Positions 1,617 through 9,832 of a stretch of DNA of 64,000 nt are shown piece after piece. The stretch spans positions 62,001-126,000 of the forward strand of contig JAFSOA010000001.1 in NCBI GenBank assembly GCA_017447265.1. The letters are read 5' to 3'. How positions within the stretch are numbered: the stretch's first letter is position 1; each line of letters opens with the position of its first letter. The notes under the pieces were generated by a model. That model was not told the origin of the DNA. It was given only the letters and a program-made list of their open reading frames with translations, and made no database searches. The position numbers were made by a program, and so were the translations under genes. Source of the stretch: Bacteroidales bacterium (GTDB lineage Bacteria > Bacteroidota > Bacteroidia > Bacteroidales > UBA932).

Positions 1617-1624
1617 TACCTTTG
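1617..1624 (+). promoter_or_regulatory. -7 promoter element for the acyl carrier protein gene
   Basis: TACCTTTG matches the Bacteroidota TAnnTTTG element and lies 29 bases before the acp ATG. No clear -33 element is seen, which would fit a promoter that needs an activator at the repeats just upstream. Confidence 0.6.
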
Positions 1625-1653
1625 CCGCCGATAAATATTAAAATCTGAAAAAA

Positions 1654-1896
1654 ATGGAAAAAGCTACGATTGAAGAGAAAGTCGTCAACATCATCTCCAA
1701 CAAACTTGGTTGCCCTCAGGAAGAGGTCGTGCCCGCCGCCAGCTTTACGACGGATCTGGGTGCTGATTCGCTCGACACGGTCGAACTGATCATGGACTTC
1801 GAGAAAGAGTTCGGTCTGAAAATTTCCGACGAAGACGCGATGGGTATCAAGACGGTGAACGACGCCATCGAGTACATCGCTGCCCGCGCCAACTAA
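1654..1896 (+). CDS. acpP: Acyl carrier protein
   Basis: 80 residues, the usual length. The phosphopantetheine attachment motif [10 protein letters not shown] is present, with the serine at about residue 39, followed by the typical acidic helix ([15 protein letters not shown]). It carries growing acyl chains in the cytoplasm. It has its own promoter and is separated from the fabH-fabF-fabZ-fabG operon only by the opposite-strand LytTR gene, so it is a plausible dedicated carrier for that operon. Whether it is also the general ACP of the cell cannot be told. In many Bacteroidales the housekeeping ACP gene sits beside fabF and rnc, and no rnc is seen here. Confidence 0.95.
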
Positions 1897-1908
1897 TAAG
1901 AGGTATCG

Positions 1909-2751
1909 CTATGAGGCGGTCCGGCCCATTCTTTCCTGGATCGCCTCGTAGTAACTCTTTGAAACCGGAATCTTTTTGGCTTCCGGATGCGAAAGCTCCA
2001 GAAACACACGCGCATTTTCCCGCTTGAGCTGCGTCACGTTGTCAAGATTGACGATGAATGAACGGTGGCAGCGGATGAAAGAGGTTCCTTCCAATTGTTT
2101 TTCGAGTCGGGTGGTGCGGCAGCGCATCAGATAGTTGAGCAGCTTGCCATCCAGTTCGTAACGGATCTCGACGTAGTTGTCCTGGGACCCGATGTAATAG
2201 ATACGGTCGGACGGAATCGAAATCTTCAGCGCTCCGGTGTAGTCATAGAAATGGATGACCGACGTATTTTGTGCAGGTGTTTCCGCTTTCAGCCTGAGTT
2301 CCAGCGCCTCAATATCTTCCGACTTGGCCTTGTTGGCCGCCAGCAGCGTGAAGATGATGTAGGGAATGGCCAGGATGAGTCCCACGCAAAGGGACGTGTA
2401 GGCCACCAGGCGCAGCGTGATCGGGATATCCGAATGGAACCAGTGGCGCGTAAAAAGCAGATAGACCACGGCGATCACGATGAATTCGGCCAGCACCCAG
2501 AGCAGGTACCTGCGTACCGACACCGTATGGGTGAGCTGATGGAGCATCAGGCTGATCTTGCTGAGCAGCAGGATACCGATGCTGGAGAGGTAGAAAAGCA
2601 GCGTGGGCAACAACACATCCGGCCCCAGTCCGATCCACACCGTCTCCGAAAAAGGATGGTAGGTGAGGAGGAAAACCAGGGAAAACGCCACCACAAAGGC
2701 GACGGATTCCAATAGGAACTTTCTGTGAAGTAGATATTTAGGTGCTTCCAA
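1909..2751 (-). CDS. Membrane-anchored LytTR-family transcription regulator
   Basis: 280 residues. Four hydrophobic segments (about residues 12-30, 40-62, 82-100 and 112-138) form an N-terminal membrane domain, followed by a short charged linker and a LytTR DNA-binding domain (about 175-278; IYYIGSQDNYVEIRY, FIRCHRSFIVNLDNV, KKIPVSKSYY). There is no receiver domain, so it is not a classical response regulator; the membrane part probably senses a lipid or membrane signal or a partner. It sits tail-to-tail with acp and head-to-head with fabH, which makes it the likely local regulator of the fatty-acyl cluster. That role is inference from position. Confidence 0.85.
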   Translation of the reverse strand: MEAPKYLLHRKFLLESVAFVVAFSLVFLLTYHPFSETVWIGLGPDVLLPTLLFYLSSIGILLLSKISLMLHQLTHTVSVRRYLLWVLAEFIVIAVVYLLFTRHWFHSDIPITLRLVAYTSLCVGLILAIPYIIFTLLAANKAKSEDIEALELRLKAETPAQNTSVIHFYDYTGALKISIPSDRIYYIGSQDNYVEIRYELDGKLLNYLMRCRTTRLEKQLEGTSFIRCHRSFIVNLDNVTQLKRENARVFLELSHPEAKKIPVSKSYYEAIQERMGRTAS

Positions 2752-2777
2752 GGCGATTCGGTTTCAACACTAGAGCG

Positions 2778-2785
2778 CAAAAGTA
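2778..2785 (-). promoter_or_regulatory. -7 promoter element for the LytTR gene
   Basis: Plus-strand CAAAAGTA reads TACTTTTG on the minus strand, a TAnnTTTG match, 27 bases before the LytTR start codon. I see no comparable element for fabH on the other strand in this 71-base divergent gap. Confidence 0.5.
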
Positions 2786-2822
2786 GCAAATTTTACTGAA
2801 TAACCCTTTACCCATCCCATAT

Positions 2823-3791
2823 ATGAAAATCATAGGAACAGGAAGTGCGCTTCCCGAACACATCGTGACAAACGAAATGCTGGCCGGGTTCCTCGATACG
2901 AGTGACAACTGGATCACGACCCGCACCGGCATCCGCACCCGCCGGCTCCTGAGCACGGAGACGCTCCGTGAACTCGCCCTGGAAGCCGCCCGGAAGGCCA
3001 TCACATCGTCCGGCCTCCGTCCCGAAGATATCGATTACCTCATCTGCTCGAACGTGGCCAACAGCTACGTGTCTCCTTCTCTGGGCAGCATCATCCTGGG
3101 CCAGCTGGGCTGCAGCTGCCCGACCTTCGACATGAACGGCGCCTGCGCGGGCCTGGTCTATTCGCTCGACGTGGCCGACGCCTTCCTCAAGGCGAAGAAT
3201 ATGAAAAACATCCTGGTGGTGGCCGCGGAACAGCCGTCGCGTTTCTGCAACTGGCACGACCGCGCCACGTCGGTGCTTTTCGGCGACGGTGCCGCCGCAC
3301 TGGTGGTCACCCAGGGCGAAGGCTTCAAGGACTTCCGCCTGACCGGCAACACCCACACCGAGGTGATGTACTACAAGCGCGAGATGCAGCGCACACCCTA
3401 CGACCGGGTGGAAGAGAAGACCGAGCCGCTGGTGATGAACGGGCGCGAGGTGTTCCGCCTGGCGGTGGAATCCTGCATCGATGACGTCGACACGCTGCTC
3501 GAACGCAACGGCATGACGGGCGACGACATTGACCTCTACCTCCTTCACCAGGCCAACATGCGCATCATCGAGTGCATCCGCGAGCACCTGGCACAGCCGA
3601 AAGAGAAATTCCCCACAAATATCCAGAAGTACGGCAACACCTCTTCCGCCAGCGTCGGCATCCTGATCGACGAGCTTTCACGCGCCGGTGAGCTGAAGGA
3701 AGGCCAGACGGTGATGCTCAGCACCTTCGGCGGCGGCTTCGTGACCGCGGCAGCCATCCTGGAATGGTCGGACATCAATTATGCCAAGTAA
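2823..3791 (+). CDS. fabH: 3-oxoacyl-ACP synthase III (KAS III)
   Basis: 322 residues, usual for FabH. The condensing-enzyme triad is complete: C108 in DMNGACAGL, H242 in LLHQANMRI and N272 in YGNTSSAS. FabH starts chains by condensing an acyl-CoA primer with malonyl-ACP. The primer used cannot be read from sequence. It is the first gene of a tight plus-strand operon and ends one base before the chosen fabF start. The operon also holds fabF, fabZ, fabG, etfB, etfA and an acyl-CoA dehydrogenase, so the product may feed a specialised rather than the general acyl pool. Confidence 0.93.
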   Translation: MKIIGTGSALPEHIVTNEMLAGFLDTSDNWITTRTGIRTRRLLSTETLRELALEAARKAITSSGLRPEDIDYLICSNVANSYVSPSLGSIILGQLGCSCPTFDMNGACAGLVYSLDVADAFLKAKNMKNILVVAAEQPSRFCNWHDRATSVLFGDGAAALVVTQGEGFKDFRLTGNTHTEVMYYKREMQRTPYDRVEEKTEPLVMNGREVFRLAVESCIDDVDTLLERNGMTGDDIDLYLLHQANMRIIECIREHLAQPKEKFPTNIQKYGNTSSASVGILIDELSRAGELKEGQTVMLSTFGGGFVTAAAILEWSDINYAK

Positions 3792-3792
3792 G

Positions 3793-5031
3793 ATGAAAAG
3801 AGTCGTCATTACCGGCCTGGGCTGTATTTCTCCCCTGGGCAACAACGTAGAAACCATGTGGGCGGAACTGCTCAAGGGCAGCTGCGCCATCGATTATATC
3901 CACTCGCTCGACGCGACGGAACTGCCGGTCAAGATTGCGGCGGAAGTGAAAGATTTCCGGCCGGAAGACTTCGGCATCGACCGCGCCATGATCCGCCACA
4001 ACGACCGTTATGCGCTCTATGCCATCGCCGCCACGGCGCAGGCTATGCGCGACAGCGGCCTGGAGGTGGGCAAGGACATCGACCCCACCCGGCTGGGCTG
4101 CGCCATCGGCTCGGGCGTGGGCGGCATCCAGACGTTCTGCCGCGAGCATGCTTCGCTGCTGCAGAACGGCAGCCGCGGCGTCTCGCCGCTCTTCATCCCT
4201 GAGATGATCGCCAACATCGCTTCCGGCAACACGGCCATCGTCTTCCACGCCGAAGGACCGAACCTTCCCGTGGTGACTGCCTGCGCGACGGGCACGCACT
4301 CCGTGGGCGAAGCTTACCGCATGATCCGCGAGGGCCGCGCCGAAGCCATGATCACGGGCGGTGCCGAGGCGGCGGTCTGCGAGATCGCCATCGCGGGCTT
4401 CTCCAACAGCAAGGCCCTGACCACGAGCGAAGATCCCATGGCGGCCTCCCTGCCGTTCGACGCCCGCCGCAAGGGTTTCGTGATCGGCGAGGGCGCCGGC
4501 GTCATGATCCTTGAAGACTATGAGCTGGCCCGCCGCCGCGGCGCACACATCTACGCCGAGGTCTGCGGCTACGGCAACAGCTGCGACGCCTACCACTACA
4601 CGGCACCGCGTGCCGATGCCAAATGCGCCACGAACTGCATCAAGTGGGCCCTCGAAGAGGCCGGCTACCGCGAAGGTGAAAAACTCTATGTCAACGCCCA
4701 CGGAACCGGCACCCCGCTCAACGACAAGGCCGAAACCCTGGCCCTCAAGCAGGCCCTGGGTGAAGCCACCGCGCGCAAGGCGGTCATCAGCAGCACCAAA
4801 TCCATGATGGGCCATATGCTCGGCGCCACCGGCGCCGTCGAGCTGGTCATCTGCGCCAAAACCCTGCAGACGGGCCATGTGGCGCCGACCATCCACCTCG
4901 ACGAGCCCGATCCGGAGTGCGACCTCGACTACACGCCGCACACGGCCCGCGACTACGCTGCCGACCTGACCATCAGCAACTCCTTCGGCTTCGGCGGACA
5001 GAACGCATGCGTAGCCCTGCGAAGAATCTAA
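3793..5031 (+). CDS. fabF: 3-oxoacyl-ACP synthase II (KAS II)
   Basis: 412 residues from the ATG at 3793 (MKRVVITGLG), one base after the fabH stop. An in-frame ATG at 3781 would add MPSK and overlap fabH. The Cys-His-His set of elongating ketosynthases is visible in VTACATGTHS, NAHGTGTPLND and KSMMGHMLGATGA, together with the conserved lysine of the last motif and the C-terminal GFGGQNA. It elongates acyl-ACP with malonyl-ACP in the cytoplasm. The complete catalytic set argues against a chain-length factor. It is translationally close to fabH and followed 28 bases later by fabZ. Confidence 0.93.
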   Translation: MKRVVITGLGCISPLGNNVETMWAELLKGSCAIDYIHSLDATELPVKIAAEVKDFRPEDFGIDRAMIRHNDRYALYAIAATAQAMRDSGLEVGKDIDPTRLGCAIGSGVGGIQTFCREHASLLQNGSRGVSPLFIPEMIANIASGNTAIVFHAEGPNLPVVTACATGTHSVGEAYRMIREGRAEAMITGGAEAAVCEIAIAGFSNSKALTTSEDPMAASLPFDARRKGFVIGEGAGVMILEDYELARRRGAHIYAEVCGYGNSCDAYHYTAPRADAKCATNCIKWALEEAGYREGEKLYVNAHGTGTPLNDKAETLALKQALGEATARKAVISSTKSMMGHMLGATGAVELVICAKTLQTGHVAPTIHLDEPDPECDLDYTPHTARDYAADLTISNSFGFGGQNACVALRRI

Positions 5032-5059
5032 GTGAAATCAATCATTGAAAAACAACGAT

Positions 5060-5476
5060 ATGACACGAGAAGAAATCAAGAACTACCTGCCCCATCGCGA
5101 GCCGATGCTGCTGGTTGACGACGTGACGATGGAAGGCGACACCGCCATCGGGCACTACCATGTGCGCGGAGACGAATTCTTCGTGCAGGGACATTTCCCG
5201 GGCTATCCGGTGGTCCCCGGCGTCATCCTCTGTGAAATCATGGGACAGTGCTCCGCCCCGCTGATGCTCGCCGAGCTCCCGGGCCGCCTGACCTTCTATG
5301 CCGGCATGAACGACGTGCGCTTCAAGAACCAGGTGCGTCCCGGCGACACCGTGACCGTCACGAGCCACATCGCCAACCGCCGCGGCCTGACCTTCTTCGT
5401 CGACGCCGAGGCCAAGGTCGACGGCAAACTCTGCGTCAAGGGCAGTCTGATCTTCATGTTGGTCGATAAGCAATAA
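5060..5476 (+). CDS. fabZ: 3-hydroxyacyl-ACP dehydratase, FabZ type
   Basis: 138 residues from the ATG at 5060 (MTREEIKNYLPHREPML); an in-frame TTG at 5045 is a less likely start. The hotdog-fold motif GHFPGYPVVPGVI holds the catalytic H45, and E59 follows in ILCEIMGQ. It removes water from 3-hydroxyacyl-ACP to give trans-2-enoyl-ACP. Only three bases separate its stop from fabG. The product would be the substrate of an enoyl reductase. No FabI, FabK, FabL or FabV is present in the window, and the operon instead continues with ETF and an acyl-CoA dehydrogenase. Confidence 0.92.
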   Translation: MTREEIKNYLPHREPMLLVDDVTMEGDTAIGHYHVRGDEFFVQGHFPGYPVVPGVILCEIMGQCSAPLMLAELPGRLTFYAGMNDVRFKNQVRPGDTVTVTSHIANRRGLTFFVDAEAKVDGKLCVKGSLIFMLVDKQ

Positions 5477-5479
5477 GCC

Positions 5480-6229
5480 ATGAAACTCCTCGAAAACAAG
5501 ACAGCCCTCATCACCGGCGCATCGCGCGGTATCGGGCGCAGCCATGCCCTCCTGTTCGCTGAAGAGGGTGCGAATATCATCTTTACTGATCTGCAGGCCA
5601 ACGAGAACAGCGAGTCGCTGCTCTCCGAACTCCGCGCCAAGGGCGTGCGGGCCGATTTCCTGGCCTCCAACGCTTCGGATTTCGCCCAGGCCCAGGAAGT
5701 GGCCCAGTGGGTGGAAGCCAACTACGGCCGTCTCGACGTGCTGGTCAACAACGCCGGCATCACCCGCGACCAGTTGATCCTCCGCATGAGCGTGGAAGAC
5801 TGGAACCTGGTGCTCGAAGTCAACCTCCGTTCGGTGTTCAACTACACGAAGGCCTTCGCGCCGCTGATGATGAAGCAGCGCAGCGGCTCCATCATCAACA
5901 TCAGCTCCATCGTGGGACTCAACGGCAACGCGGGCCAGTGCAACTACGCCGCGTCCAAGGCCGGCATCATCGGTTTCACGCGCTCCATCGCCAAGGAACT
6001 CGGCTCGCGCGGCATCCGCTGCAACGCCGTGGCGCCCGGTTTCATCGAGACCCCGATGACGCGCCAGCTCTCCGAAGACGTCCGCAAGGAGTGGATGAAG
6101 CAGATTCCCCTGCACCGCGGCGGTCTCGACACCGACGTGGCCCACGTGTCGCTCTTCCTGGCCAGCGACCTGGCCGGCTATGTGACCGGACAGGTCATCA
6201 GCTGCGACGGCGGCCTGGCCATCAACTAA
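5480..6229 (+). CDS. fabG: 3-oxoacyl-ACP reductase (short-chain dehydrogenase)
   Basis: 249 residues, classical SDR length. The nucleotide-binding TGASRGIG (residues 12-19), NNAG (90-93) and the catalytic S143, Y156 and K160 (YAASK) are all present, and the C-terminus VTGQVISCDGGLAIN is typical of FabG. It reduces 3-oxoacyl-ACP to 3-hydroxyacyl-ACP, normally with NADPH. As the fourth enzyme of the cluster it completes condensation, reduction and dehydration. The remaining step, enoyl reduction, would have to be done by the downstream dehydrogenase or by an enzyme encoded elsewhere. Confidence 0.92.
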   Translation: MKLLENKTALITGASRGIGRSHALLFAEEGANIIFTDLQANENSESLLSELRAKGVRADFLASNASDFAQAQEVAQWVEANYGRLDVLVNNAGITRDQLILRMSVEDWNLVLEVNLRSVFNYTKAFAPLMMKQRSGSIINISSIVGLNGNAGQCNYAASKAGIIGFTRSIAKELGSRGIRCNAVAPGFIETPMTRQLSEDVRKEWMKQIPLHRGGLDTDVAHVSLFLASDLAGYVTGQVISCDGGLAIN

Positions 6230-6260
6230 TATCCCGTACGAATCCAAGCATCAACAGAAT

Positions 6261-7061
6261 ATGTCTTTCAAAATAGTAGTTTTGGCCAAGCAGGTTCCCG
6301 ACACGCACAATGTCGGAGCCGATGCCATGAATCCGGACGGCACCGTGAACCGGGCCGCCCTGCCGGTGGTCTTCAACCCCGAAGACCTGAAAGCCCTGGA
6401 AATGGCGCTGCGCGTCAAAGACCAGCTGCCCGACGCCACGGTCACCGTGGTGACCATGGGCCCGCCCCGCGCCGCCGAGATCGTCAAAGACGCCCGCAAC
6501 CGCGGCGCCGACGACGGTGTCGTGCTGAGCGACATGCGTTTTGCCGGTGCCGACACGCTGGCGACTTCCTATGCCCTTTCGCAGGCTGTCAGGCAGCTGG
6601 GCAAAGTCGACCTGATCTTCGGCGGCCGCCAGGCCATCGACGGCGACACCGCCCAGGTCGGCCCGCAGGTGGCTGAGAAACTCGAGATTCCGCAGGTGAC
6701 CTATGCCGAAGAACTGATCGCCGTCAACACCCGGGAGATTACCATCCGCCGTCGCCTCGAACACGGCACGGAGTGCGTCAAGGCACAACTGCCCGCCCTC
6801 GTGACGGTCACTTCCGCCGGCGCCGACTGCCGCTTCCCTAACGCGCACCGTATGCTGCGGCTGGCCAAGGATGAAGTCCGCATGATCAATGCCGACAGCA
6901 TTGACGCCGACATGGAGCGCCTGGGCCTCAAGGGCTCGCCGACCAAGGTGAAGAAGATTGAAAACGTGGTGCTCGCCCACAAGGAGTCGGTGGTGCTCGA
7001 ACCCACCGAGGCCGCGCTCAATGAACTTTCGGCCACGCTGATCCAGGAGCACATTTTGTAA
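6261..7061 (+). CDS. etfB: Electron transfer flavoprotein, beta subunit
   Basis: 266 residues. The start VVLAKQVPDT, then VTMGPPRAAE and DLIFGGRQAIDGDTAQVGP are hallmark EtfB stretches; the last resembles the form seen in clostridial and related ETFs paired with short-chain acyl-CoA dehydrogenases. It forms a heterodimer with the EtfA encoded 19 bases downstream and shuttles electrons between the acyl dehydrogenase and a redox partner. Whether this ETF is electron-bifurcating cannot be settled from the sequence alone. It is co-directional with the fab genes, with only a 31-base gap after fabG. Confidence 0.93.
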   Translation: MSFKIVVLAKQVPDTHNVGADAMNPDGTVNRAALPVVFNPEDLKALEMALRVKDQLPDATVTVVTMGPPRAAEIVKDARNRGADDGVVLSDMRFAGADTLATSYALSQAVRQLGKVDLIFGGRQAIDGDTAQVGPQVAEKLEIPQVTYAEELIAVNTREITIRRRLEHGTECVKAQLPALVTVTSAGADCRFPNAHRMLRLAKDEVRMINADSIDADMERLGLKGSPTKVKKIENVVLAHKESVVLEPTEAALNELSATLIQEHIL

Positions 7062-7080
7062 TTTCTCAATCCTGAAAACG

Positions 7081-8103
7081 ATGAACAACGTATTAGTATA
7101 TTGCGAACTGTCGGAGAAAAACACCATCGCCGACATCAGCCTCGAGCTCTGCACCAAGGGCCGCCAGCTGGCCACCCGCCTGGGTTGCCGCCTGCAGGCC
7201 GCCGTGCTGGGCAGCCAGGTGAAAGCCGCTGCCGAATCGCTCTATCCCTACGGCGTGGACGACGTGTTTCTGGCCGACGATCCCCGTCTGTCTCCCTATC
7301 GCACCCTGCCGCATTTCGACGTGCTGTCAAAACTCATCCGGAAGGAACAGCCGCAGATCGTGCTCTTCGGCGCCTCGAGCGTGGGCCGCGACCTCGCCCC
7401 GCGCATCGCCTCGTCGCTGCGCTGCGGCCTGACCGCCGACTGCACCCAGCTGGAAATCGGACCGCACGACGATCCCAAGACCGGCAAGCACTACGAAGAT
7501 GTCCTGATGCAGATTCGTCCGGCTTTCGGCGGCAACATCATCGCCACCATCGTCTGCCCGGAGACCCGGCCGCAGATGGCAACCGTCCGTGAGGGCGTCA
7601 TGAAGAAAGAGGTTTTCGATCCCGCGCACAAGGGTACCATCATCCCGGTCGCCGTGGAGGCGTCGCTCGCCGCCGCCGACCAGGCCGTGCAGATCCTCAG
7701 CCGGGAGATCGAAGAACAGAAGATCGACATTAAGGGTGCCCAGATCATCGTGGCCGGCGGCTACGGCATGGGCAGCAAGGAGAACTTCCAGCTGCTCCAC
7801 CAGTTCGCCCGCCTGATCGGCGCCAGCGTCGGCGCGACCCGCGCTGCCGTGGATGCCGGTTTCACCGAGGCTGAGCGCCAGATCGGCCAGACCGGCGTGA
7901 CCGTCCGTCCGAAGCTCTACATCGCCTGCGGCATCAGCGGCGCCGTGCAGCACCGCGCCGGCATGGAGCAGAGTGCCAAGATCATCAGCATCAACACCGA
8001 TCCGGAAGCGCCGATCAACGCCATCGCCGACTACACCATCGTCGGTGACGTGATGACGGTCATTCCGCAATTTATGGCTTGTTATAAAAATAATCTGAAG
8101 TAG
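7081..8103 (+). CDS. etfA: Electron transfer flavoprotein, alpha subunit
   Basis: 340 residues. The C-terminal FAD domain is clear: AGGYGMGSKENF (about 225-236), VGATRAAVDAG (250-260), QIGQTGVTVRPKLYIACGISGA (267-288) and API..ADY..VGD near 310-323. It is longer at the N-terminus than the minimal FAD domain, as expected for full EtfA. It pairs with EtfB and delivers or accepts electrons from the acyl-CoA dehydrogenase encoded two bases downstream. An etfB-etfA-dehydrogenase trio occurs by itself in other Bacteroidales; here it is appended to fatty-acid synthesis genes. Confidence 0.93.
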   Translation: MNNVLVYCELSEKNTIADISLELCTKGRQLATRLGCRLQAAVLGSQVKAAAESLYPYGVDDVFLADDPRLSPYRTLPHFDVLSKLIRKEQPQIVLFGASSVGRDLAPRIASSLRCGLTADCTQLEIGPHDDPKTGKHYEDVLMQIRPAFGGNIIATIVCPETRPQMATVREGVMKKEVFDPAHKGTIIPVAVEASLAAADQAVQILSREIEEQKIDIKGAQIIVAGGYGMGSKENFQLLHQFARLIGASVGATRAAVDAGFTEAERQIGQTGVTVRPKLYIACGISGAVQHRAGMEQSAKIISINTDPEAPINAIADYTIVGDVMTVIPQFMACYKNNLK

Positions 8104-8105
8104 TT

Positions 8106-9749
8106 ATGAATTTCTATACCGATAACGAGCGTCTGTCGTTCTATCTCCACCATCCCGACATGGAACAGGTGGTCGCCGTGCGCGAAAAGAACTTTGCCGA
8201 AGCCGGCCAGCATCCCGAAGCGCCCGCTTCCGCCGAAGAGGCCGTGAACCAGTACGACATGGTGATGAACCTGGTGGGTGAAATCGCCGGCGAGGTCATC
8301 GCGCCGAACGCCGAAGAAGTCGACCATCTGGGTCCGAAGCTCGAGAACGGCCGTGTCGAATATGCACCCGGCACGCGCCGCAACCTCGACGCCCTCATCC
8401 AGGCAGGCCTCTACGGCATCTCGCTGGAGCGCCGCTACAACGGACTCAACTTCCCGCGTGCCGCCGTGGTCATGGCCGCCGAGATCATCGCCCGCGCCGA
8501 CGTGGGCTTCGCTACCATCTGGGGCCTGACCGACTGCGCCGACACCATCCAGGAATTCGGTTCCGACGAACTGAAAGAAAAATACCTGCCCCGCATCTGG
8601 CAGGGTGCCACCTGCTCGATGGACCTCACCGAGCCGGATGCCGGCAGCGACCTGCAGTCCGTGCGCCTGAAGGCCACGTATGACGAGGCGGCCGGCTGCT
8701 GGCGCCTGAACGGCGTGAAGCGCTTCATCACCAACGGCGACGCCGACCTGCACCTGGTGCTGGCCCGCAGCGAGGAAGGTACCAACGACGGCCGCGGCCT
8801 GTCGTACTTCGTGTTCGACAAGGCCGATGGCGGCATGACCGTGCGCCGCATCGAGAACAAGATGGGCATCAAGGGTTCCCCGACCTGCGAGCTGCAGTTC
8901 ACCAATGCACCGTGCCAGATCGTGGGTGAACGCCGTCTGGGCCTCATCAAATATGTGATGTCGCTGATGAACGGCGCCCGCCTGGGTGTCGCTGCCCAGT
9001 CCATCGGCCTGTGCGAGGCTGCCTGCCGCGAAGCCGAGGCTTACGCCGCATCCCGCGAGCAGTTCGGCCATCCGATCCGGGATTTCGTGGCGGTCCGCGA
9101 CCTGCTCGACCGTATGCGCGCCCGCACCGACGGTGTCCGCAGCCTGATGTACGAGACTGCCCGCTATGTGGACCTGGCCACCAGTTCCAAACCGGCCTCC
9201 CGCATCGCCGACATCCTCACCCCGCTGGTCAAGCTCAACGCCAGCGAGTACGCCAACCAGTGCGCCTACGACTGCATCCAGGTGCATGGCGGCAGCGGCT
9301 TCATGAAAGAGTATGCGTGCGAGCGCCTCTACCGCGACGCGCGCATCCTTTCCATCTACGAGGGCACGAGCCAGTTGCAGGTGGTGGCCGCCATGAAGGG
9401 CATCGCCTCCGGCGCTTATCTGAAGCAGATTGAAAGCTACGACGCCCGCGTGAGCGCGGCGCTGGGCACCACGCCCGATGCGGTGCAGGAGAAATGCCTC
9501 GGCACGCTCCGCCAAGCCACCGTGCTCTACCAGCGCTTCTACGACATGGCCGCCGGCGACGGCACCTCGACCGAGCGTTTCGAACACTGCACCCGTTCGC
9601 TGACCGAGGTCCTGAGCTACATCGTCATGGGCTACCTGCTGCTGCTCGACAGCCAGCGCGACGCCCGCTTCCTGCCTTCCTGCCGCTACTTCGTCCGCGA
9701 AGCCATCGGCCAGGCCTCCCGCTTCGTCGCAGAGCTGGAAAACTGCTAG
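8106..9749 (+). CDS. Acyl-CoA dehydrogenase, long form
   Basis: 547 residues, longer than the 380-residue classical family and similar to long forms that carry extra N- and C-terminal regions. Recognisable motifs are CSMDLTEPDAGSDL (about 170-183), NGVKRFITNG (202-211), the catalytic glutamate E419 in IYEGTSQLQ and QVHGGSGFMKEY. It interconverts acyl and trans-2-enoyl thioesters with FAD, using ETF. In this operon it could oxidise acyl chains or run in reverse as the missing enoyl reductase after FabZ; the direction is not known. It is the last gene of the operon and is followed by a strong terminator. Specificity for CoA versus ACP thioesters cannot be judged here. Confidence 0.88.
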   Translation: MNFYTDNERLSFYLHHPDMEQVVAVREKNFAEAGQHPEAPASAEEAVNQYDMVMNLVGEIAGEVIAPNAEEVDHLGPKLENGRVEYAPGTRRNLDALIQAGLYGISLERRYNGLNFPRAAVVMAAEIIARADVGFATIWGLTDCADTIQEFGSDELKEKYLPRIWQGATCSMDLTEPDAGSDLQSVRLKATYDEAAGCWRLNGVKRFITNGDADLHLVLARSEEGTNDGRGLSYFVFDKADGGMTVRRIENKMGIKGSPTCELQFTNAPCQIVGERRLGLIKYVMSLMNGARLGVAAQSIGLCEAACREAEAYAASREQFGHPIRDFVAVRDLLDRMRARTDGVRSLMYETARYVDLATSSKPASRIADILTPLVKLNASEYANQCAYDCIQVHGGSGFMKEYACERLYRDARILSIYEGTSQLQVVAAMKGIASGAYLKQIESYDARVSAALGTTPDAVQEKCLGTLRQATVLYQRFYDMAAGDGTSTERFEHCTRSLTEVLSYIVMGYLLLLDSQRDARFLPSCRYFVREAIGQASRFVAELENC

Positions 9750-9800
9750 GCTGCGGCCGCTGCAACGGACGCATCTGACTGTCAGCCGATTATGCAAAGT

Positions 9801-9832
9801 GATCCCCCTCAAAACGAGGGGGATCAACTTTT
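9801..9832 (+). terminator. Intrinsic terminator of the fab-etf operon
   Basis: A perfect 10-base stem GATCCCCCTC / GAGGGGGATC (9801-9810 with 9816-9825), loop AAAAC, is followed by AACTTTTAT. It lies 51 bases after the acyl-CoA dehydrogenase stop codon. Confidence 0.85.

Follow-up and report, generated by a model that had tools for sequence, protein, structure and literature searches.

The enoyl-ACP (acyl carrier protein) reductase of type II fatty acid synthesis (FASII) has long been a target of drugs such as triclosan, and to our knowledge only FabI, FabK, FabL and FabV are established as such enzymes (InhA being a FabI relative). Here we describe a locus in a 64,000-nucleotide stretch of a Bacteroidales genome (hereafter the window, i.e., the whole stretch analyzed, G000:C7:62001-126000; host genome 2.13 Mb, 79% complete) in which the genes of an electron transfer flavoprotein (ETF; etfB, etfA) and an acyl-CoA dehydrogenase (ACAD) follow a set of fab genes, and which, judged from sequence comparisons, we take with a probability of roughly 0.78 to encode the enoyl reductase of this FASII, replacing FabI or FabK. 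Among the best solved matches of the three proteins are the butyryl-CoA dehydrogenase Bcd-Etf (5ol2) and the caffeyl-CoA reductase-Etf CarCDE (6fah). The window shares with them a glycine at the bifurcating site, an ACAD with a catalytic glutamate and the adjoining position of the etfB, etfA and dehydrogenase genes in one operon, but it differs in its setting, a FASII operon that also holds acp and fab genes, in having an ACAD of 547 amino acids with a C-terminal PF12186 part, and in its predicted substrate, an enoyl-ACP. FabK and FabI occur in like operons of sister genomes, as the window's trio does here, yet they are unrelated single-gene families, whereas the proposed reductase needs three gene products. 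The nearest homologues are standalone etfB-etfA-ACAD trios of Bacteroidales, with ACADs ~49–61% identical to the window's, which in contrast to it are not linked to fab genes and fall on the opposite side of the ACAD tree. FabX of Helicobacter pylori is an enzyme of FabK-like fold. Like the proposed enzyme it acts on acyl-ACP in fatty acid synthesis, but it is reported to contain a [4Fe-4S] cluster and to make unsaturated acids as a dehydrogenase/isomerase (PMC8626469). MbtN and RedW are ACAD family enzymes named for carrier-bound acyl groups, the kind of substrate proposed for the window's ACAD, whose scores of 41 and 136 bits lie far under their respective curated NCBIfam cut-offs of 700 and 650 bits. 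No description of an ETF-ACAD as a FASII enoyl reductase was found in open-access papers, a scope outside which most subscription papers and all preprints lie.

Genes in the window were identified by matches to NCBIfam and Pfam profiles, with bit scores set against the family cut-offs. The plus-strand run of seven genes, fabH-fabF-fabZ-fabG-etfB-etfA-ACAD, spans positions 2823-9749 and would encode an elongation cycle of type II fatty acid synthesis. It consists of fabH (2823..3791, ketoacyl-ACP synthase (KAS) III; TIGR00747, 304 bits, cut-off 292, and the PF08541 search of the genome), fabF (3781..5031, KAS II; TIGR03150, 545 bits, cut-off 494), fabZ (5045..5476, 3-hydroxyacyl-ACP dehydratase; NF000582, 113.2 bits, cut-off 113, with TIGR01750 at 103 bits and under its cut-off of 155; start codon TTG, next ATG at 5060), fabG (5480..6229, 3-oxoacyl-ACP reductase; TIGR01830, 325 bits, cut-off 298), etfB (6261..7061; PDB matches and alignment), etfA (7081..8103; best PDB matches 5ol2 and 6fah) and the ACAD gene for the proposed enoyl-ACP reductase subunit (8106..9749; PF02771, PF02770, PF00441 and PF12186 above cut-off). 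By the coordinates of the open reading frames fabH and fabF share 11 bases, and the later gaps in the run measure 13, 3, 31, 19, and 2 bases. Upstream lie acp on the plus strand (1654..1896, 80 amino acids; TIGR00517, 98 bits, cut-off 70; PF00550) and, on the minus strand, a LytTR regulator gene (1909..2751, 280 amino acids; PF04397, 70 bits). An earlier note on this DNA had joined acp and the seven genes into one operon; all the genes that it named are present, but acp stands outside the contiguous run because the LytTR gene sits between it and fabH. The operon, acp / antisense LytTR / fabH-fabF-fabZ-fabG-etfB-etfA-ACAD, is genuine: the gene run is beyond chance, since 15 other genus genomes carry it as well.

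For comparison, 40 genomes of the genus and 149 of the family were sampled, the genus and operon genomes being incomplete assemblies. FabF of the operon type (84–100% identity) was detected in 16/40 genus genomes, whose loci all follow the order nlpC / acp / LytTR / fabH-fabF-fabZ as far as etfB, and 15 of them show the ACAD (G163's contig ends within etfB, G153 is without fabG, and fabH of G172 and the ACAD genes of G103 and, at a contig end, G170 are in two pieces). Nine genus genomes have fabH-fabK-fabF-fabZ-fabG instead, in eight cases alongside a divergent LytTR match (26–38% identity), and two (G154 and G173) have fabF-fabZ-fabI behind nlpC, acp and LytTR genes 64–91% identical to those of the window. 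The three locus types are mutually exclusive (0/40 genomes with two types), and in the genus search FabI was confined to the two FabI-locus genomes and FabK to the nine FabK-locus genomes, weak extra matches of the FabI query (27%) being fabG. The FabK of G135 scores above its NCBIfam cut-off (458 vs. 453), and the FabI of G154 has FabI models as its best matches, at scores under their cut-offs. The left flank in G173 (nlpC 64%, acp 86%, and LytTR 65% identical) and a right-hand EamA gene (93%), separated from fabI by two other genes, match those of the window, which points to a cassette exchanged between matching flanks. On a FabF tree of 68 rows (without L057) the type of partner reductase switches at least three times; L156, L157, L160, L163, and L164, scan repeats of genus loci, were left out of the FabF and ACAD trees.

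At a threshold of E ≤ 1e-8, FabI and FabK queries had no match in any of the genus's 16 operon genomes (completeness 92–98% in six), and a joined FabI+FabK query found 0 FabI and 0 close FabK in 26 further operon genomes, while it did match in G010 and G154, the controls for FabI, and in G135, the control for FabK; FabI and close FabK are absent from all 42 operon genomes searched. Two of the 26 (L175, L180) carry a FabK-like gene of 42% identity; FabK-like genes of ~200–335 bits were not scored as FabK, and some co-occur with FabI (e.g., G007, G010). Within the family sample the E. coli FabI query gave matches of merely 28–32% in 47/149 genomes and a relative's FabI gave matches in 48/149, none of them genus members of that sample. 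In these 149 genomes FabI (48 genomes) and FabK above 400 bits (25 genomes) never occur together. A long ACAD (match over 500 bits) without FabI or a FabK-like match > 200 bits was present in 25 more family genomes, and in the six of these whose trio neighborhood was examined the trio is not fab-linked. Fisher tests gave p = 0.001 within the genus, p = 2e-11 when the 42 operon genomes were set against the remaining family genomes, and p = 0.06 for the family sample on its own; they take no account of common descent or of assembly gaps, the second comparison pools two samples, and the values serve as illustration only.

The earlier note had called for a search of the genome for fabI/fabK and for a second acp/fabF. 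The host genome gave no FabI or FabK match, and a second acpP-fabF pair plus fabD was located outside the operon; gaps in this search remain, since the genome is 79% complete. The operon's fabH is the sole KAS III found there, just as the operon's KAS III is the sole match in 12/16 operon genomes. Six short-chain dehydrogenase/reductase (SDR) matches of the host genome were considered as FabI or FabL, and no FabI model was among the matches shown: they are the operon FabG, a FlxB (flexirubin type), and four proteins with YdfG, KdsR, mycolate reductase, and PRK06197 as best models, all under cut-off. The FlxB, which scores above the cut-off of one FabG model as well, is the sole other FabG-like SDR. 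A complete FAS set apart from the operon, part of what the earlier note named as a refutation of the proposed role, was thus not encountered as far as searched (one KAS III, no FabI/FabK, and FlxB as the other FabG-like SDR). The FlxB gene (397 bits, cut-off 340) lies in a flexirubin/aryl-polyene-like cluster with several KAS-like matches (G000:C17:55000-87000; L154, L057), and the KdsR-like SDR (3-ketodihydrosphingosine reductase; G000:C15:221707-222258, L004; 321 bits, under the cut-off of 400) hints at sphingolipid synthesis in the host.

The ETF subunits resemble those of bifurcating ETFs. The best PDB matches of EtfB are CarD, Bcd-Etf, LctB, the A. fermentans Etf and EtfABCX at 156–183 bits, vs. 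60 bits for human EtfB and at most 60 bits for canonical ETFs, and those of EtfA are 5ol2 (289 bits) and 6fah (287 bits), vs. 149 bits for human EtfA. Gly128 of the window's EtfB aligns with Gly123 of A. fermentans EtfB, and a glycine at this position separates bifurcating from canonical ETFs and leaves room for a second FAD (PMC12630350). It is present in 46/46 fab-linked EtfBs aligned, and Arg254 and His291, in conserved motifs, in 45/45 fab-linked EtfAs. The ACAD has Glu419 in a YEGT motif (Glu in 40/40 fab-linked and 71/71 standalone ACADs aligned), its listed profile matches are ACAD-type models only, its score for the acryloyl-CoA reductase family AcrC (NF042972) is 242 bits against a cut-off of 640, and it is ~31–36% identical to the family's short ACADs. 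Fab-linked proteins differ from standalone ones in length: EtfB has 264–270 amino acids in 38/46 of the former vs. 286–290 in at least 61/75 of the latter, and an ACAD loop has 10 or 4 residues in 29/40 vs. 27–28 in 68/71.

We infer an ACP thioester as substrate, the reductive direction and NADH as donor; the bifurcating-type matches and glycine of EtfB, the Arg and His of EtfA and the Glu of the ACAD make NADH the likely donor and enoyl thioester reduction the likely direction. EtfBA-ACAD would occupy the place of FabI or FabK, and the last step of the cycle, from trans-2-enoyl-ACP to acyl-ACP, would be carried out by the ACAD working reductively with electrons from its own EtfAB. NADH would reduce the FAD in EtfB, one electron would pass over the EtfA FAD and the ACAD flavin to the enoyl thioester, and the other may be passed by bifurcation to ferredoxin or flavodoxin, in the manner of butyryl-CoA dehydrogenase-Etf. 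Ferredoxin reduction by the complex is possible; a net reduction of ferredoxin during fatty acid synthesis is among the most speculative parts of the proposal. That the trio represents a further, multi-subunit class of enoyl-ACP reductase, in which a bifurcating EtfAB-ACAD ends each elongation round with NADH while reducing ferredoxin, is a tentative idea to which we give somewhat less than even odds.

The linkage to fab genes extends beyond the genus. Scanning the GTDB species genomes with an EtfB alignment and two peptide patterns returned at least 80 loci, and the trio is fab-linked in 31 of the 80 listed, in six gene orders: that of the window (5 loci), LytTR / fabHFZG-(acp)-etfBA-ACAD (9; acp found in 5, one contig beginning inside fabF and one ending inside the ACAD), LytTR / fabH-fabF-fabZ-etfB-acp-etfA-ACAD-fabG (11), LytTR / fabHFZG-fabD-etfBA-ACAD (3), acp-fabF-fabH-etfB(-etfA-ACAD) (2; one cut after etfB), and etfBA-ACAD-fabHFZG (1). 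The gene-order comparison across relatives that the earlier note had proposed has recovered the operon in 16/40 genus genomes and 31/80 listed scan loci. The scan genomes are uncultured Bacteroidales, Bacteroidia, Bacteroidetes, and Lentimicrobiaceae, several of them sampled from faeces or from the rumen, colon or rectum. A quick tree of the ACADs (108 rows), computed without the broken or cut ACADs L040, L144, L148, L159, and L176, places all 37 fab-linked ACADs on one side of a single branch and the 71 unlinked ones on the other (SH-aLRT 98); L173, whose contig begins 99 bases before etfB, was scored as unlinked. This split and the six gene orders suggest that fab linkage is a property of one ACAD subfamily, kept through several rearrangements. 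A same-strand fab gene within 6 kb of the trio was found in none of 28 other family loci examined (some on short contigs), and neither FabI nor FabK within any fab-linked etfBA-ACAD locus examined.

These results bear on other explanations of the locus. ACADs are reversible, and the ACAD-ETF could work oxidatively, desaturating acyl-ACP for unsaturated or special chains, much as FabX of H. pylori does with a different kind of enzyme, while an unrecognised enoyl reductase completes the cycle; as 15/149 family genomes lack every reductase sought, another one is conceivable. We regard this as improbable, given that no fab-linked locus also holds FabI or FabK, that the like operon is filled by one of these in 11/40 genus genomes, and that the nearest solved ETFs power NADH-dependent reductions; desaturation for a specialised lipid, one of two options in the earlier note, becomes less likely because the operon holds the sole KAS III found in 12/16 operon genomes. 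The other option, an ETF-driven dehydrogenase that makes up for the missing enoyl reductase, gains support from the FabK/FabI exchange, from the absence of FabI and close FabK among the operon genomes searched, and from acp and fabD being linked to the trio in relatives. Unlikely, if a little less so than oxidative use, is a second synthase for special acyl chains (e.g., a sphingolipid or polyene side chain) with an ETF-driven reductase, bulk fatty acids coming from acpP-fabF and unknown partners: the separate acpP-fabF pair and fabD, the KdsR-like and FlxB genes, and the retention of FabD (8/11) and FabF (10/11) in relatives without the locus would fit it, but the 79% complete host genome yielded neither a second KAS III nor an enoyl reductase, its other FabG-like SDR is best named FlxB, and the loci with FabK or FabI resemble ordinary FASII. 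Even then the ACAD would serve its own operon as enoyl reductase. That a catabolic or CoA-specific trio merely adjoins the fab genes is very improbable; related trios outside this operon type are indeed unlinked to fab genes (71/108 rows of the ACAD tree), but the whole ACAD group is linked across six gene orders, acp lies between etfB and etfA in 11 listed loci, and the host genome has a separate Bcd-EtfB-EtfA beside genes resembling lysine fermentation. This set (G000:C4:28000-46000, L058) is 30–42% identical to the window's proteins, and its neighbors resemble genes for lysine fermentation to butyrate.

Several observations weigh against a role of EtfBA-ACAD as the enoyl reductase. Fifteen of the 149 family genomes, five of them 96–100% complete, yielded neither FabI nor a long ACAD nor any FabK-like match > 200 bits, so that the absence of FabI/FabK is no proof of the ACAD's role; these bacteria may take up fatty acids or use an unrecognised enoyl reductase. 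The FabV model PF12241 matched in 0/149 genomes and in no control either, so that this negative carries no information and a FabV may exist. Eleven genus genomes have no such locus (G015, G080, G149, G150, G151, G152, G155, G161, G162, G167, and G176), and FabI, FabK and KAS III are all unmatched in them, which in itself speaks for the role, yet most keep FabD and FabF as given above (FabD was found in 36/40 genus genomes); the KAS III search was also negative in G154, G164, and G173. None of the three reductases adjoins the fab genes of G114 (fabH-fabF-fabZ) and G164 (fabF only). Concerning the exchange, the fabF of the FabI genomes belongs to another lineage (54–56% identity), their run lacks fabG and fabH and no KAS III was found, so that a cassette rather than a single gene was exchanged; no EamA gene turned up in the 8 kb searched to the right of the G154 fabI, and EamA adjoins the operon in only 1/5 other operon loci compared. 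The EtfB glycine, found also in 75/75 standalone EtfBs aligned, is no marker of the fab-linked kind, and in one Bacteroidales genome (isolate CSSed165cm_466; L204:9045-13604) FabI stands directly upstream of an etfB-etfA-ACAD trio of the unlinked group.

The protein encoded by the LytTR gene is, by its hydropathy, membrane-bound, with hydrophobic stretches in residues 10–142 and the LytTR domain at the C-terminus; a Pfam search of the protein gave no receiver-domain match, in agreement with the earlier description of a regulator without one. A divergent LytTR match stands beside fabH in 27/28 listed scan loci of the first four gene orders, the contig of the 28th beginning inside fabF, and outside the window's operon type these matches are merely 23–33% identical to the window's LytTR. 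Between LytTR and fabH the motif TAnnTTTG, which we take to be the Bacteroides-type -7 box and from whose matches we draw no conclusion, points toward LytTR alone in the window's type and occurs in several other loci also ~40–55 bases before fabH. Gene linkage is what ties the regulator to the operon, and control of the operon by it is, like net ferredoxin reduction, among the most speculative suggestions made here. The terminator that the earlier note placed only after the last gene corresponds to a hairpin of 11 pairs on the plus strand (9800..9826), 3' of the ACAD gene; its reading as a terminator rests on strength and position, because terminator-like sites are no commoner in the region than expected by chance (8 observed vs. 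a shuffle mean of 7.9).

Overall, the comparisons give good support to the view that a bifurcating-type ETF-ACAD reductase was probably recruited into FASII, in operons whose counterparts in sister genomes carry FabI or FabK. If true, this would be a new way of making fatty acids, adding an unrelated class of enoyl-ACP reductase and tying fatty acid synthesis to flavin-based electron transfer, and it would account for the way in which certain rumen and gut Bacteroidales manage without FabI and FabK. If the bifurcating reading also holds, membrane lipid synthesis would aid energy conservation in these bacteria and should be insensitive to FabI inhibitors.

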